Source of the DNA: Alphaproteobacteria bacterium
GTDB taxonomy: Bacteria; Pseudomonadota; Alphaproteobacteria; Rs-D84
Assembly: GCA_017472065.1 (NCBI GenBank)
Contig: JAFURB010000007.1
Span: 1 to 64,000, forward strand
DNA length: 64,000 nt
Direction: 5' to 3'
The stretch's first letter is position 1. Each line of letters begins with the position of its first letter. Position numbers and translations under genes: made by a program. Of this stretch, positions 48,680-54,738 are shown in pieces. Below the pieces are notes generated by a model that saw only the letters and a program-made list of their open reading frames with translations, did no database searches and was not told where the DNA came from.

Positions 48680-48739
48680 TTGATAAGGGACATGAAATTA
48701 AATTTTATGTCTCTTGTTTTTTATGATATAATGTCGGTT

Positions 48740-49417
48740 ATGAAACGTTCAATATGGTTTTGGGTGTGTTTTGTTGTTGCCGTTATTATGGCAATCTATT
48801 TTGCAACACGCATTATTATGGTTGGGATGGGGCGCGGAAAACTGGCCCAGGTGCATAATATTTCTATTGTGACGGATTCACGCGATGCAGATATGGATGC
48901 AATGCGTGCGGCGGCCGGCGGATTGGTGCGTAACACATATGATGTTGATTTGGATGTGTTAAATGCACGAATTGCAGCGGTGCCGGGGGTAAAACAATCG
49001 GCGGTGCGGCGTTTGCCAAATGGAAACTTGGCGGTGCGGGCAAATATGCATCGCGCCGTGGCCCAGTGGTCCGATGGGGAAAGTTATTTCCCATTGTCGG
49101 CCGATGGAACAATCGTTAATCAGCCCAGCAGTGCGCGTGATATTGGGGCGGTTGTGTTTGTTGGCGCATTGCCAAAAGATATTGCGGAAATTACATCTGC
49201 GGCACGCAATATGGTGGCCGATGTCGCGTATATGGAATGGATCGAAAACAGACGGTGGAATATTGTCACAATGGGGGGGATTACCGTTATGTTACCCGAA
49301 GAAAACCCGGTTGGGGCAATCAGTACACTGATTTCGTTGAACCAAAATCATAATTTGTTGGGAAAAAAGATTCAGGTTATTGATATGCGTGATGGGGCGC
49401 GTATATTGGTTAAATAG
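48740..49417 (+). CDS. ftsQ: Cell-division protein FtsQ
   Basis: A 225-residue single-pass protein: a membrane helix (about 3-26) and a POTRA domain (I-S-I-V-T-D-S-R... V-P-G-V-K-Q-S-A-V-R-R-L-P-N-G-N-L) followed by the FtsQ beta region (F-P-L-S-A-D-G-T-I-V). FtsQ links early and late divisome proteins. ATG 48740 fits a TATAAT at 48727-48732, suggesting a leaderless message; an ATG at 48731 is alternative. It lies upstream of ftsA as in other bacteria, which supports the call on a divergent sequence. Confidence 0.82.
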   Translation: MKRSIWFWVCFVVAVIMAIYFATRIIMVGMGRGKLAQVHNISIVTDSRDADMDAMRAAAGGLVRNTYDVDLDVLNARIAAVPGVKQSAVRRLPNGNLAVRANMHRAVAQWSDGESYFPLSADGTIVNQPSSARDIGAVVFVGALPKDIAEITSAARNMVADVAYMEWIENRRWNIVTMGGITVMLPEENPVGAISTLISLNQNHNLLGKKIQVIDMRDGARILVK

Positions 49418-49438: not shown

Positions 49439-51214
49439 ATGAATATGATGGATTCTTGTTTTTTATGTCTGGATATTGGCACATCGGGTGTGCGTGGGAT
49501 TGCACATCATGTAAAATCTGGGAATATTGCGAAATCTGCAATGTTTTCTGTGGACAGTTTTGATACTATTTTTGCAATCAAGTCGGTTGTAAATGAACTG
49601 GAAAAACAAATTGGACGCAATCTGGATCGGGCGTATATTACCGGTAATATGGGGCCGGCGCGATTTGGCGCATTTGTGAAAAGTACAACATGGTCCGGGG
49701 AACACAAAATCAATCAATCAGATATAAAAAATCAAATCGCACAGATTACACCGCCGGATGAATTTCATCCTGTGCATATTGTGCCATTGGCGTACAGTCG
49801 GCCAGGCGCACGCGATATGTTGAACCCGGTGGGCGGTGTTGATCGGCAATTGATGTCTATATTCGGGGCGATATTTTACAGACTGGATAGATTGGACAAT
49901 ATTTATTCATTGTTGCGACATGCGTATATTGAACCGATTGCGTTCTATGACCCACAATTTTTAGAAAATGCGGCGTTTCGTGGCGCCAAACAAAATACGA
50001 TATTTATTGATTTTGGCGCAGAATTTACATCTGCATCGATTTGGACAGACCGTGGACCGGTATGGCATATCAAGGTGCCAATCGGCGGAACAAAGATAAC
50101 AAATGATATTGCCGATAATTTTAATATCGATTTTGATGCCGCAGAAAGGATTAAGCGCGCAGTTGCAGATTTAATACCAAAAGAAATGGATCGATTTACA
50201 CCGGCGGATACGGCGTATGGTTTTTCGCGTGGCGATGTTAATGATATTGTGTTGCCGGTGATTTTAGATGTTGTGGGAAAAATTCGTGATTCTGGAAATG
50301 CGGCACTGGAAAAATACAGACCGGTGCGAATTGTGTTGACGGGGGGCGGATCTGAAATGGGGGGGATTCGCGACTTTATCGAAAATACTTTTGCAATTCC
50401 GACCGAGTGTTTACATGCAGATGCGGCGGTGCGCGCATTGTCAAAATATGTCTGGGGGCTGTTTGCAAATAAACGCGCGGCATATCTGGCGCGGCGCGAA
50501 AAAATCTATAATGCGTTTGGTCGCATCACGGGTATGTTTCAGCCGCGAAAAAAACATGTAAAACCGAAATTTATTCCAATTTTGCCCAGTTCACTGTGCT
50601 TTAATATGAAACGGCCAGAAACATACAGCCTGTTTAAGGCAGGTGGAATTTCGATGATTCACATCGATGTTATGGATGGTTTCTATGTGGACAAGGTTGC
50701 AGGTGGCATCGATTTAATAAAATTTATTCGTTCGCATACAGATGCACATTTGCATGTACATTTGATGACCGAAAGCCCAGCCGTATGGGCCGCGGATGCC
50801 GTTGCAGCCGGGGCAGATACGGTGATATTATCAACAAATACATCGGGTGTTCGTAATGCGGTGCGTGTGGTTAAATCATCGGGGCGGCGCGTTGGTATCG
50901 CACTGCATCCAGATTCATCTGTTACAATATTAAAAGATGTCCTGCGCGAATTAGACGAGGTTATGGTAATGACCGTTGCACCAGGGGCGGCCGGCCAGGA
51001 TTTTAGACCAGATTGTTTGCATAAAATTTCGGTCTTGGCGGCGACGCGTAAAAAATATGGATTGAAATTCTTGATTTCCGTTGATGGTGGAATAAATGAC
51101 AAGACTGCACAGATGTGTTGGGATGCAGGCGCAGATTTGTTGGTCAGTGGTTCGTATTTAGCAAAAAGTAATGATTTCCCATTGGCGGTGCAAAGTTTGT
51201 TAAAACACGAATAA
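49439..51214 (+). CDS. ftsA: FtsA fused to ribulose-phosphate 3-epimerase
   Basis: A 591-residue protein of two full-size domains. Residues 1-380 are FtsA: the actin-like ATP-binding motif L-D-I-G-T-S-G-V-R-G at 11-20, F-I-D-F-G-A-E-F-T-S, L-T-G-G-G-S-E-M-G-G-I, and a C-terminal basic, amphipathic region. From about 380 an Rpe TIM barrel starts (P-I-L-P-S-S-L-C-F) with His408, Asp410 in HIDVMDG, His441 in HVHLM and Asp549 in SVDGG, the catalytic metal set. FtsA tethers FtsZ to the membrane; Rpe interconverts ribulose-5-P and xylulose-5-P. No stop or frameshift separates the parts. I know of no such fusion. ftsZ is not next to it. Confidence 0.85.
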   Translation: MNMMDSCFLCLDIGTSGVRGIAHHVKSGNIAKSAMFSVDSFDTIFAIKSVVNELEKQIGRNLDRAYITGNMGPARFGAFVKSTTWSGEHKINQSDIKNQIAQITPPDEFHPVHIVPLAYSRPGARDMLNPVGGVDRQLMSIFGAIFYRLDRLDNIYSLLRHAYIEPIAFYDPQFLENAAFRGAKQNTIFIDFGAEFTSASIWTDRGPVWHIKVPIGGTKITNDIADNFNIDFDAAERIKRAVADLIPKEMDRFTPADTAYGFSRGDVNDIVLPVILDVVGKIRDSGNAALEKYRPVRIVLTGGGSEMGGIRDFIENTFAIPTECLHADAAVRALSKYVWGLFANKRAAYLARREKIYNAFGRITGMFQPRKKHVKPKFIPILPSSLCFNMKRPETYSLFKAGGISMIHIDVMDGFYVDKVAGGIDLIKFIRSHTDAHLHVHLMTESPAVWAADAVAAGADTVILSTNTSGVRNAVRVVKSSGRRVGIALHPDSSVTILKDVLRELDEVMVMTVAPGAAGQDFRPDCLHKISVLAATRKKYGLKFLISVDGGINDKTAQMCWDAGADLLVSGSYLAKSNDFPLAVQSLLKHE

Positions 51215-51270: not shown

Positions 51271-51345
51271 GCGGGCATAGTACAAAGGCTAGTATGCAAG
51301 CCTTCCAAGCTTGAAATGCGGGTTCGATTCCCGCTGCCCGCACCA
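51271..51345 (+). tRNA. tRNA-Gly (TCC)
   Basis: 75-nt cloverleaf with encoded CCA; acceptor GCGGGCA/TGCCCGC, anticodon TCC in loop CTTCCAA, T-loop TTCGATT. Confidence 0.93.
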
Positions 51346-51398
51346 CACTTCGCCAAGGCTTCGTGTGGCAGGCCACAAAAGCGTGTGGCGATAAGTTC

Positions 51399-51485
51399 GG
51401 GCGTGCGCCGGAGTTGGAGAGCCGGGGCAGACTGTAAATCTGTTGGCTTAAGCCTGAGCTGGTTCGAATCCAGCCACTCCCACCA
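51399..51485 (+). tRNA. tRNA-Tyr (GTA)
   Basis: A class II tRNA of 87 nt with a long variable arm (GGC TTAA GCC), anticodon GTA in CTGTAAA and encoded CCA. With acceptor GGGCGTG against CACTCCC there is one mismatch at position 4, and position 8 reads C instead of U, so the 5' end deviates. Anticodon, variable and T arms are canonical. The 53-nt spacer from tRNA-Gly carries inverted repeats with TTCG motifs. Confidence 0.82.
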
Positions 51486-51518: not shown

Positions 51519-52679
51519 TTAAAACATCCGGACGATTTCGGCCATTATTTGGTGGGTCTGGCGGTCGTATGTCGGGATGTTTGATTCTTGGATGGTATAA
51601 GTGTAACTGAGTGCAGGAATAAAATTTTTTATGTTTATATAACTGTTATAAATGCGGGTGTATATTTGATATATGTTGTCGTGGCGGGTCGTGGTGTGAA
51701 ATTCGTTGTCTATTAAAAATGTCCCGGTTGTGTGATAGGATGCGTGTGAATACATGGCGTTTATATAGAAATTAAATCCGTATGGAAATATTTGAAAATA
51801 TCCAATGGCAATACGACCAATGTCCGCCCCAAGTGCAGATAGTTTTGTGTCATTGTGTGATATGGCCATGGTTAATGATATAAAACTGAAATCGTTCAAG
51901 TAATATTTGGGATGAATATAAAATGTCCAATCGTATCCTGATAATATATTATTAACATCTGGGTTGTGATAGTGGGTGCGCTGGATATCCAGGCCGATGG
52001 ATGAAAACACGCGGTCGGGAAATTGAATTGTGGATCCAACGCGTATGCCGTATGCAGTATTATAAAAATGATTGTCATACATGCGCGCGCCAAATGATGG
52101 TTGAATATAAATGTCGCCATGTGAAAATATATATCGCGGCCCGATGGCGATGTGTGCTGAATAATCTGTTGGAATATTGTCTGATATATTCAAAATTGCG
52201 CCACCAAATGTTGTGCGTATGCCAATGTTTTTTGAAATAGGGATGAAATGATTTACTGCGCCATTTATTTGCAGACCGATGCCAGATGTGGGATCTTCGA
52301 TTTCTGCACAGGCAAGGCCGTTTATGGTATTAACACACTCGTTACGATTTGATGGGGTGTAATTAATACTGGCGTCGGGGATGGCGCCAATGCCGAATTC
52401 TGTGTCCCATTTTTTCTTGTGATGGATGATTGATAAATAAGTGTTTATTTCGTCCAAGATTTCGCGTGGCGCATCACACTGCGCGGTTAGAAATTCAAAG
52501 TTATACTGGGCCGCAGAATATTGTTGGTTTTCAAAATATTTTTTGGCCAATTCATATCGCGCGTGCCAATCGTATGGATTTTTGCGAACTGTGTCGTTAT
52601 ATGATGCGATATTATTGGATGCACAAACATGGTGTGAAAAGATTGCAAAAATACAAAAAATCAAAAAAATATTTCGCAT
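51519..52679 (-). CDS. Slam-like outer-membrane protein (TPR + barrel)
   Basis: A 386-residue protein with a signal peptide, an N-terminal TPR-like unit (Y-D-W-H-A-R-Y-E-L-A-K-K-Y-F-E-N-Q-Q-Y), and a C-terminal beta-barrel of about 14 strands beginning with G-I-G-A-I-P-D-A-S-I-N-Y, similar to the P-D-S-N-x-N start of DUF560/Slam barrels. It ends M-A-E-I-V-R-M-F. Slam proteins move lipoproteins to the cell surface; this could be their counterpart here. Two cysteines in a loop look disulphide-linked. ATG 52679 gives a normal signal peptide. Confidence 0.68.
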   Translation of the reverse strand: MRNIFLIFCIFAIFSHHVCASNNIASYNDTVRKNPYDWHARYELAKKYFENQQYSAAQYNFEFLTAQCDAPREILDEINTYLSIIHHKKKWDTEFGIGAIPDASINYTPSNRNECVNTINGLACAEIEDPTSGIGLQINGAVNHFIPISKNIGIRTTFGGAILNISDNIPTDYSAHIAIGPRYIFSHGDIYIQPSFGARMYDNHFYNTAYGIRVGSTIQFPDRVFSSIGLDIQRTHYHNPDVNNILSGYDWTFYIHPKYYLNDFSFISLTMAISHNDTKLSALGADIGRIAIGYFQIFPYGFNFYINAMYSHASYHTTGTFLIDNEFHTTTRHDNIYQIYTRIYNSYINIKNFIPALSYTYTIQESNIPTYDRQTHQIMAEIVRMF

Positions 52680-52738
52680 ATCTTGTCTTATTGTATCGGG
52701 GGACAAGATGTATCGCAAAAGGATGGTTTTCTTGATTT

Positions 52739-53085: not shown

Positions 53086-54690
53086 TTATTCTTCGATTTC
53101 AACTTCGTCTATATATGTGCGGTTGACCGGTTCTAATGTCACAGGGGTAAATCCAGATACGGTGATGGTGTCACGGTCATCTTCGGGCAGGACTGTTATA
53201 ACATCTGTACGCATTGTAACAGGTGTTGATGACATGTTCGCCCCAAATGTTTTTGATGTGTATTTCCCAGTTAAACGTTCTGGGATGCGGATGTAATTGT
53301 TTGGATTTATTCCGTTGGTTTGTAATGACATTTCATCGGCGGGAACAATGTGACGCTGTTCAATATTATATATCGGTTTTATAAAGTTTGCAGGGGCCGA
53401 TGTGACATCTGTGGTTGTGCCGTCGCCATTGGTTTTTACAATGCGTAATGCGCGTTCATTGTCGCCAGTTGGCTTTAATCTAAACAGGCCGTCTGTACCG
53501 ACATAACCACTGGGGTCCAGTAAATATGATGCGCTGGATTTATTTGAATACAGCATGCCGATTGCCATGTTGGCCGCATCATATCCAAATGTTGCCAGAC
53601 GTGATGGGGCGGTGCCTGTGATGTTATTGTATAAATCGGCGTATGTTGTGTTTGTTTCTGGTAAGATTGCGAATTTTGCACCAGTCATTGTTAAATCAGA
53701 TGCAATGTCTGAACCATCCCATAATGCCGTTCCATAGTATGATGCATTGCGTGATGATACACCATAGTAACGCATAAATGATGCCAATTTCTTGGTGTCG
53801 TTCGCGTTGCCCAAGAACAATATTGCATCATATGGAATTGGTCCCAGGGTGTCTGTGCGTGAAATCTTTTCCAGTTGCATGGTCAGGCTGGAACGTTCCA
53901 GAGCAGTCAAGCGTTCGTTGGTTAAGATGTCTGATAATATTTCACGGGCGCGTGTGTTGGCGGCACTGCGCGCAGTGTTCATAGATGCGGTTTTTGATGT
54001 GTCCTTGATTGATGTGGCATTGCCTTCGCTATAATAAAACAGGCCGTTTAATGGAATATTATAAATTGTGGCCGCGTTTTTGGCCGTGCCGGCCATCAGT
54101 TTGCCAGATGTGCTGTCGGGGGCAATGATGATAAATGAACGAACACCGTCAGATGACATTTGTTTTACAATTGCCTCAACCGAATTAGTTGGCATTAATG
54201 CCATGGTCATAACACCATCGCCGACCGCCGTTGCATCGGATGTAAATGTCAGGGCAGGTATGTTGTCTGGCTTTGATTCACGCAGTGTGCGTGCATTATC
54301 GGCAAATACAGGCCCGATTATGATTTCTGGGTTTGTGGCCAATGCATCCGTGATTGCGGTATTAATATCTTTTGCGGTGTCATAATAGGATACAGTTAGT
54401 CCCGGGCGATTATGTTGCAGGACCGCAGTTGTAATTGATGTTGATATTGTTTTCCCAATTGATGCGTTTTTGCCAGATGTTGGTAATAATACCGCAATGC
54501 GGTGTGGTGTTTCATCCGGTGTGGTTGTGCCATATTCGTCCATTGGACGACCGTATTGCATGGCCGATGGTGTGCCGGCCGATGTTGCATCGTATCCGTC
54601 AAACCAATCAGGTGTGTCTGTTACACTGGGTGCACAACCCGCCAACAGTAAAATCAATCCTAAAACTTTGAAAAATTTATTCATATACAT
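53086..54690 (-). CDS. LpoA/LppC-like penicillin-binding protein activator
   Basis: A 534-residue lipoprotein (lipobox L-L-A-G-C) with a periplasmic-binding-protein fold: R-I-A-V-L-L-P-T-S-G-K-N-A-S-I-G-K-T-I near the start, typical of LppC. LpoA activates PBP1A from the outer membrane. It is divergent from rsmI, the classical neighbour of lpoA. Unlike E. coli LpoA there is no TPR domain; only the LppC part is present. ATG 54690 has GGA 7 nt upstream. Confidence 0.82.
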   Translation of the reverse strand: MYMNKFFKVLGLILLLAGCAPSVTDTPDWFDGYDATSAGTPSAMQYGRPMDEYGTTTPDETPHRIAVLLPTSGKNASIGKTISTSITTAVLQHNRPGLTVSYYDTAKDINTAITDALATNPEIIIGPVFADNARTLRESKPDNIPALTFTSDATAVGDGVMTMALMPTNSVEAIVKQMSSDGVRSFIIIAPDSTSGKLMAGTAKNAATIYNIPLNGLFYYSEGNATSIKDTSKTASMNTARSAANTRAREILSDILTNERLTALERSSLTMQLEKISRTDTLGPIPYDAILFLGNANDTKKLASFMRYYGVSSRNASYYGTALWDGSDIASDLTMTGAKFAILPETNTTYADLYNNITGTAPSRLATFGYDAANMAIGMLYSNKSSASYLLDPSGYVGTDGLFRLKPTGDNERALRIVKTNGDGTTTDVTSAPANFIKPIYNIEQRHIVPADEMSLQTNGINPNNYIRIPERLTGKYTSKTFGANMSSTPVTMRTDVITVLPEDDRDTITVSGFTPVTLEPVNRTYIDEVEIEE

Positions 54691-54738
54691 TGAAAAATCC
54701 ATTTTATTTTGTATCATTTTACTATAAAAGGATTTTTA

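Follow-up and report, generated by a model that had tools for sequence, protein, structure and literature searches.

An FtsA-derived protein fused to ribulose-phosphate 3-epimerase in a family of gut Alphaproteobacteria with apparent loss of FtsZ

Few walled bacteria divide without FtsZ; in the table of one review (PMC10591338), FtsA is missing wherever FtsZ is missing. A small-genome gut family of Alphaproteobacteria from the order Rs-D84 in which ftsZ is not found raises the question of how its cells divide and, by keeping FtsA, isolates what FtsA does alone. In this family, an FtsA-derived protein is joined to ribulose-phosphate 3-epimerase (Rpe) in a single polypeptide. The gene examined lies on contig JAFURB010000007.1 of assembly GCA_017472065.1 (Alphaproteobacteria bacterium), of which positions 1 to 64,000 of the forward strand, hereafter the window, were analyzed. 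A search of the PubMed Central literature, outside which fall most subscription papers and all preprints, returned no paper on a fusion of FtsA with ribulose-phosphate 3-epimerase, none on ftsZ in Enterousia or Rs-D84, and none on an FtsZ-less bacterium with FtsA; a broader search of the same source gave nothing fitting by title or by the start of the abstract. The fusion gene and its parts are as follows.

49439..51214, + strand: ftsA-rpe fusion gene, 591 codons plus stop (open frame; Pfam; matches in 175 of 183 family genomes)
49439..50473, + strand: FtsA-derived module, residues 1-345 (PF14450; profile match to FtsA structures over 5-338)
49472..49474, + strand: Asp12 of the LDIGT motif (Asp in 63 of 67 distinct fusions, Tyr in four g26 sequences)
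50009..50011, + strand: Asp191 of the IDFG motif (Asp in 63 of 67 distinct fusions, Asn or His in four g26 sequences)
50465..50539, + strand: predicted helix, residues 343-367, at the position of the FtsA C-terminal membrane helix and followed by a basic linker (AlphaFold helix 343-367)
50576..51211, + strand: Rpe barrel, residues 380-591 (PF00834; 2fli at E 6e-53 by profile; Foldseek TM 0.93 of target)
50660..50668, + strand: His408 and Asp410 of Rpe (67 of 67 distinct fusions)
50759..50761, + strand: His441 of Rpe (67 of 67)
51083..51085, + strand: Asp549 of Rpe (67 of 67)

The open frame begins at TTG 49421 or ATG 49439, and its stop ends at 51214. The ATG start, which gives 591 amino acids and a length-based mass of about 65 kDa, agrees with the start in relatives. 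PF14450 (FtsA) matches the protein at 46.4 bits against a cut-off of 31.8 and PF00834 (Ribul_P_3_epim) at 144.6 bits against 21.1, at positions 195-330 and 403-580, respectively, counted in the 597-residue numbering of the TTG start. The modules run from an FtsA-type actin fold through a C-terminal helix and a short basic linker to a complete Rpe barrel, and in a profile of 25 fusions one half matches structures of Rpe (2fli, E 6e-53) and the other those of FtsA (7q6f, E 1e-18). The out-of-phase frames of the gene each contain 31 stops in 590 codons.

The taxonomic family of the window (f1) is represented by 183 genomes, the window's own included, and 175 of them match the fusion protein. Among the family matches listed, which come from separate assemblies, all are single open frames of about 590-633 amino acids that are stop-free inside; weaker-scoring matches, such as those in G112, G153, and G167, were left out of this frame reading. 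The "one TAA inside" recorded for some relatives arises because the query started 18 bases upstream of the ATG. Distant genera (g22, g23, g26, g28, and g29) carry the fusion as one frame of 555-617 amino acids, while in g20 it is divided between two contigs. The first-pass annotation of this DNA had read a true FtsA-Rpe fusion in an uninterrupted frame and asked whether a frameshift was hidden in it and whether relatives share it. The open frames of the relatives listed rule out a frameshift or assembly error, and the fusion is confirmed as real and not an assembly artefact. Neither a hidden frameshift or pair of genes nor, in the window's genome, a second intact rpe alongside a decayed site in the fusion, the results which that annotation had named as counting against it, appeared.

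Eight f1 genomes gave no fusion match (G005, G061, G103, G109, G111, G114, G165, and G187); G111 is 95% complete and the other seven 60-87%. The named relatives are metagenome-assembled genomes of about 0.5-1.1 Mb, labeled "Alphaproteobacteria bacterium", from the gut of sheep, roe deer, water deer, and horse; this size and source would fit Rs-D84 and its candidate genus Enterousia (PMC12306168). In G026, with 4% contamination, two full-length fusions are found (G026:C32 and G026:C5), either by duplication or by contamination, and several other family genomes, e.g., G177 and G135, give two matches to the fusion. For sequence comparison, 70 fusions were gathered and reduced to 67 distinct ones by removal of the duplicates L063, L140, and L143; L064, L067, L079, L083, and L138 were dropped for stop codons inside the given stretch, and G184, whose fusion extends over two contigs, is outside the 67. 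Alignments A1 and A3 each draw 25 fusions from the collected set.

The Rpe half is most likely an intact epimerase, predicted to be active from its conserved residues and genome context. His408, Asp410, His441, and Asp549, whose numbers in the first-pass annotation are exact with the ATG start, are all invariant in alignment A1. The AlphaFold blocks of this half mostly have confidence (pLDDT) of 77-94. Its score misses the Rpe equivalog TIGR01163 (NCBIfam; 154.1 vs 212.6 bits) and reaches that of the subfamily NF004076 (173.2 vs 165 bits). In the window's genome (80% complete), the only rpe detected is that of the fusion, and the search for a second copy, also proposed earlier, found none there. 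Of the 25 family genomes tested for transketolase, 24 have it, and so does the window's own. Non-oxidative pentose-phosphate genes are reported as mostly present in Rs-D84 lineages, transaldolase excepted (PMC12306168).

The N-terminal half, taken alone, aligns over residues 5-338 to the FtsA structure 7q6f (E 2e-18), the 1C region included; PilM (3e-12) and MreB (1e-8) match less well in the same profile search, which rules out that MreB was mistaken for FtsA. MreB accounts for the second PF14450 match in the window's genome. Asp12 in LDIGT (the phosphate-1 motif) and Asp191 in IDFG (phosphate-2) mark the nucleotide site. In Foldseek, Thermotoga maritima FtsA is matched at E 1e-12 with poor superposition. 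The alignment behind the AlphaFold model is shallow for FtsA (mean pLDDT 65.5 for the whole model), so only the Rpe half of the model is reliable, and over residues 71-170 its block pLDDT is 27-48. The description of this half as full-length FtsA stands by sequence, while the model fails to confirm 1C. Because the half misses the FtsA equivalog TIGR01174 (NCBIfam; 70 vs 175.85 bits) and has no FtsZ to bind, it is named here FtsA-derived.

A helix is predicted at residues 343-367, where the membrane anchor of FtsA would lie, in agreement with the earlier proposal that this anchor is now internal. Its amphipathic moment is weakly above that of shuffled sequences (mean z 0.89 over 46 sequences, with 16 of the 46 above 1), and it is missing from four g22 sequences. 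The linker evolves with a ratio of nonsynonymous to synonymous substitution (dN/dS) of 0.26-0.53. For the two halves, rough dN/dS values from five distinct unsaturated pairs are about 0.08-0.14 (FtsA) and 0.05-0.09 (Rpe); of nine pairs tried, saturation of the FtsA half removed two and a duplicate sequence another two. Both halves look to be under purifying selection, and the FtsA half appears mildly accelerated, with no collapse.

The Z-ring context that the first-pass annotation assumed is not found. With PF00091, ftsZ was detected in none of 35 genus genomes vs 23 of 24 others, and TIGR00065 (E<=1) gave no credible match in the 183 family genomes (best E 0.002) but matched 17 of the 18 order genomes outside the family at E below 1e-84. 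FtsZ has apparently been lost throughout the family while FtsA has been retained. The earlier account holds for the fusion and its occurrence in relatives, the intact-looking epimerase site, the lack of a second rpe in the window's genome, and the internal helix but not for the Z-ring, and its idea of tying sugar flux to the septum needs recasting for a divisome without FtsZ. Thirteen weak FtsZ matches occur in the family; the six that were read comprise four ThiF-family proteins and two without a Pfam match. The remaining order genome, G038 from another family, has a weak TIGR00065 match (E 2.8e-8) and does not match the fusion at E<=10. The matching frame of 422 amino acids (G038:C18, L175:3522-4787, - strand) has no Pfam match and, by eye, lacks the glycine-rich tubulin signature; it is perhaps an FtsZ in decay.

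Of seven other order genomes, four have a strong MipZ match (262-311 bits); none of the 25 family genomes does, their matches being at most 45 bits and of a kind also given by Escherichia coli. Since G035, G038, and G039 also have no strong MipZ, its loss is supporting evidence only. The neighbours of ftsZ vary among six order relatives, so no clean empty site of ftsZ loss is demonstrable. At the ftsZ loci of G045 and G040 (L176 and L181), ftsZ adjoins what by eye look like phage or gene-transfer-agent portal and terminase genes, and a strong MipZ lies nearby.

Other division and wall-synthesis genes are retained. At least two SEDS proteins (FtsW/RodA-type) are found in 24 of 25 family genomes, at least three transpeptidases (penicillin-binding proteins, PBPs) in 25 of 25, and a strong MreB in 23 of 25, with none strong in G177 (99% complete) or G197. 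RodA, MreB, and MrdA are reported for Rs-D84 in a paper that leaves FtsZ unmentioned (PMC12306168). An FtsQ relative is found at 69 of 69 fusion loci, and in the window it directly precedes the fusion.

48680..49417, + strand: ftsQ, with 21 bases from its stop to the ATG of the fusion (FtsQ_DivIB_C, 40.8 bits)

The arrangement in sister families suggests a route by which the fusion arose. In three of them (represented by L038; L039; L041 and L051), rpe lies directly 3′ of ftsA. The junction reads TAATG in L039 and L041 and ATGA in L051, and in L038 rpe starts 16 bases past the ftsA stop. In f4, eight loci have a gene of about 590-600 amino acids between the two (ABC-transporter-like in L040), and at the f6 locus L050 no rpe is seen close to ftsA. 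Order genomes of other families show no fusion in the rows seen of 15 that match; 3 of the 18 give no match at all. Loss of the boundary between the coupled neighbours ftsA and rpe would be the simplest origin. The linker holds no conserved start codon that would flag an independent rpe in 50 sequences.

The reading favored here, to which we give about an even chance, is that of a single bifunctional protein: an active, membrane-tethered Rpe on an FtsA-derived actin-like scaffold that serves FtsQ/FtsW/FtsI-type septal synthesis without a Z-ring. First, ftsA would have lost its boundary with rpe, the gene next to it and often overlapping it. The Rpe half would then be the cell's working epimerase, supplying transketolase, while the FtsA half, on the membrane and with no FtsZ, would act as an actin-like scaffold and activator for septal wall synthesis of this type, with Rpe carried along on the inner membrane or septum. 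We infer the scaffold role from purifying selection, ftsQ synteny, and the retained septal synthases, and further infer filaments, localization, and a link from sugar flux to septation. That FtsA acts directly on FtsW, as a review reports (PMC10591338), is counted in favor of a scaffold and activator.

Several observations weigh against this reading. The ratio of FtsA to Rpe distances has a median of 1.94 in the genus (741 pairs, the identical L003/L063 still among them) vs 1.35 in 55 order pairs and 1.57 in 10 f4 pairs with FtsZ; L160, at a contig end, was excluded from one set. In g26, all four sequences (L158, L159, L160, and L162) replace both nucleotide-site aspartates and keep the fold length and the Rpe residues, so that their FtsA half is a possible pseudo-actin. 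In g22, both aspartates are kept, the middle Gly of the GGG motif is lost, and the adenosine motif and helix are decayed. Since the nucleotide sites have decayed in these genera, ATP-driven scaffolding cannot be general. The complete-looking genome G142 carries the fusion with no transketolase match. Lastly, the fusion and the loss of ftsZ are each one event on the tree, covering the whole family, so neither a causal link between them nor their order is shown.

The same decayed sites keep two alternatives alive. Under the first, which we consider unlikely but the strongest of the rivals, division is driven by MreB, RodA, and PBP2, as has been proposed for Wolbachia supergroup J, and the FtsA part is a mere membrane or cytoskeletal tether for Rpe with no division role. 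The strong MreB in 23 of 25 genomes and the retained SEDS proteins and PBPs are in keeping with this, MreB has been put forward as the FtsZ substitute in Wolbachia J (PMC10591338), and g26 and g22 have lost their nucleotide sites with Rpe intact. However, the FtsA half is under apparent purifying selection in most genera, the fusion lies beside ftsQ at 69 of 69 loci, and G177 and G197 have no strong MreB match. The earlier suggestion of simply a tethered enzyme is still viable across the family, and more so for g26 and g22, where nucleotide-site residues or the helix are lost.

Under the second, the FtsA part became useless after the loss of FtsZ and is hard to delete as the upstream half of the only rpe. 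Its faster evolution, the motif decay in g22 and g26, and the Rpe residues, which no sequence has lost, would fit such a passenger. This is nonetheless improbable given that some 345 residues are retained in streamlined genomes across the family, with dN/dS of 0.08-0.14 and with both aspartates (LDIG and IDxG) kept in 63 of 67 fusions. Free Rpe enzymes self-associate, and it is conceivable, if slightly more doubtful still, that the epimerase is itself part of the division scaffold, its self-association cross-linking membrane-bound FtsA units into a platform once organized by FtsZ, with catalysis retained. If true, some of the tubulin ring's work has passed to a pentose-phosphate enzyme.

It is very unlikely that the gene yields two proteins in practice, with Rpe freed by an internal translation start or by linker cleavage: the linker is fast-evolving and an ATG, GTG, or TTG falls somewhere in its region in 33 of 50 sequences, but 17 of 50 have none, no single position offers a start codon in over 26 of the 50, and the frame is open in all family matches listed. 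An FtsZ too divergent to detect, with which the fusion works, is hardly credible, since, although the FtsZ-like frame of G038 indicates that strong FtsZ decay occurs in the order, two models find no FtsZ in the family, the six weak matches read were ThiF proteins or lacked a Pfam match, and strong MipZ is absent from all 25 family genomes scanned.

Downstream of the fusion gene, genes for tRNA-Gly and tRNA-Tyr follow directly on its 3′ side (51271-51485, + strand). Just beyond lies a SlipAM-type surface lipoprotein assembly modifier (PF04575, 83.9 bits; 51519-52718, - strand), and further on an LppC-type lipoprotein (PF04348, 41.9 bits; 53086-54717, - strand). The latter family includes the PBP activator LpoA.

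The fusion would physically connect sugar metabolism with the division apparatus, in a form testable with purified protein, and can be set beside four known systems. Like FtsA of Vibrio maritimus (7q6f) and T. maritima (1e4f/4a2a), it has an actin-type fold over 5-338, nucleotide motifs, a helix after the fold, and an ftsQ neighbour; it differs in falling below the equivalog score, in having no FtsZ partner in the genome, in its internal helix, and in the attached Rpe. Like Streptococcus pyogenes Rpe (2fli), it has a complete barrel and the four named catalytic residues, whereas FtsA stands at its N-terminus, its score lies below TIGR01163, and the HFVPN-type loop of free Rpe has become FYVDK-type. 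The separate ftsA and rpe of the sister families are the same genes in the same order, with overlap or near-overlap in L038, L039, L041, and L051; they remain two genes, in families where 17 of 18 genomes have ftsZ, while the window's family has one gene and no ftsZ. Chlamydia and Wolbachia supergroup J, as covered in PMC10591338, likewise have no FtsZ and keep MreB, RodA/FtsW-type proteins, and PBPs. They are without FtsA too (0% in the review's table), whereas the family described here keeps FtsA, fused to an enzyme.
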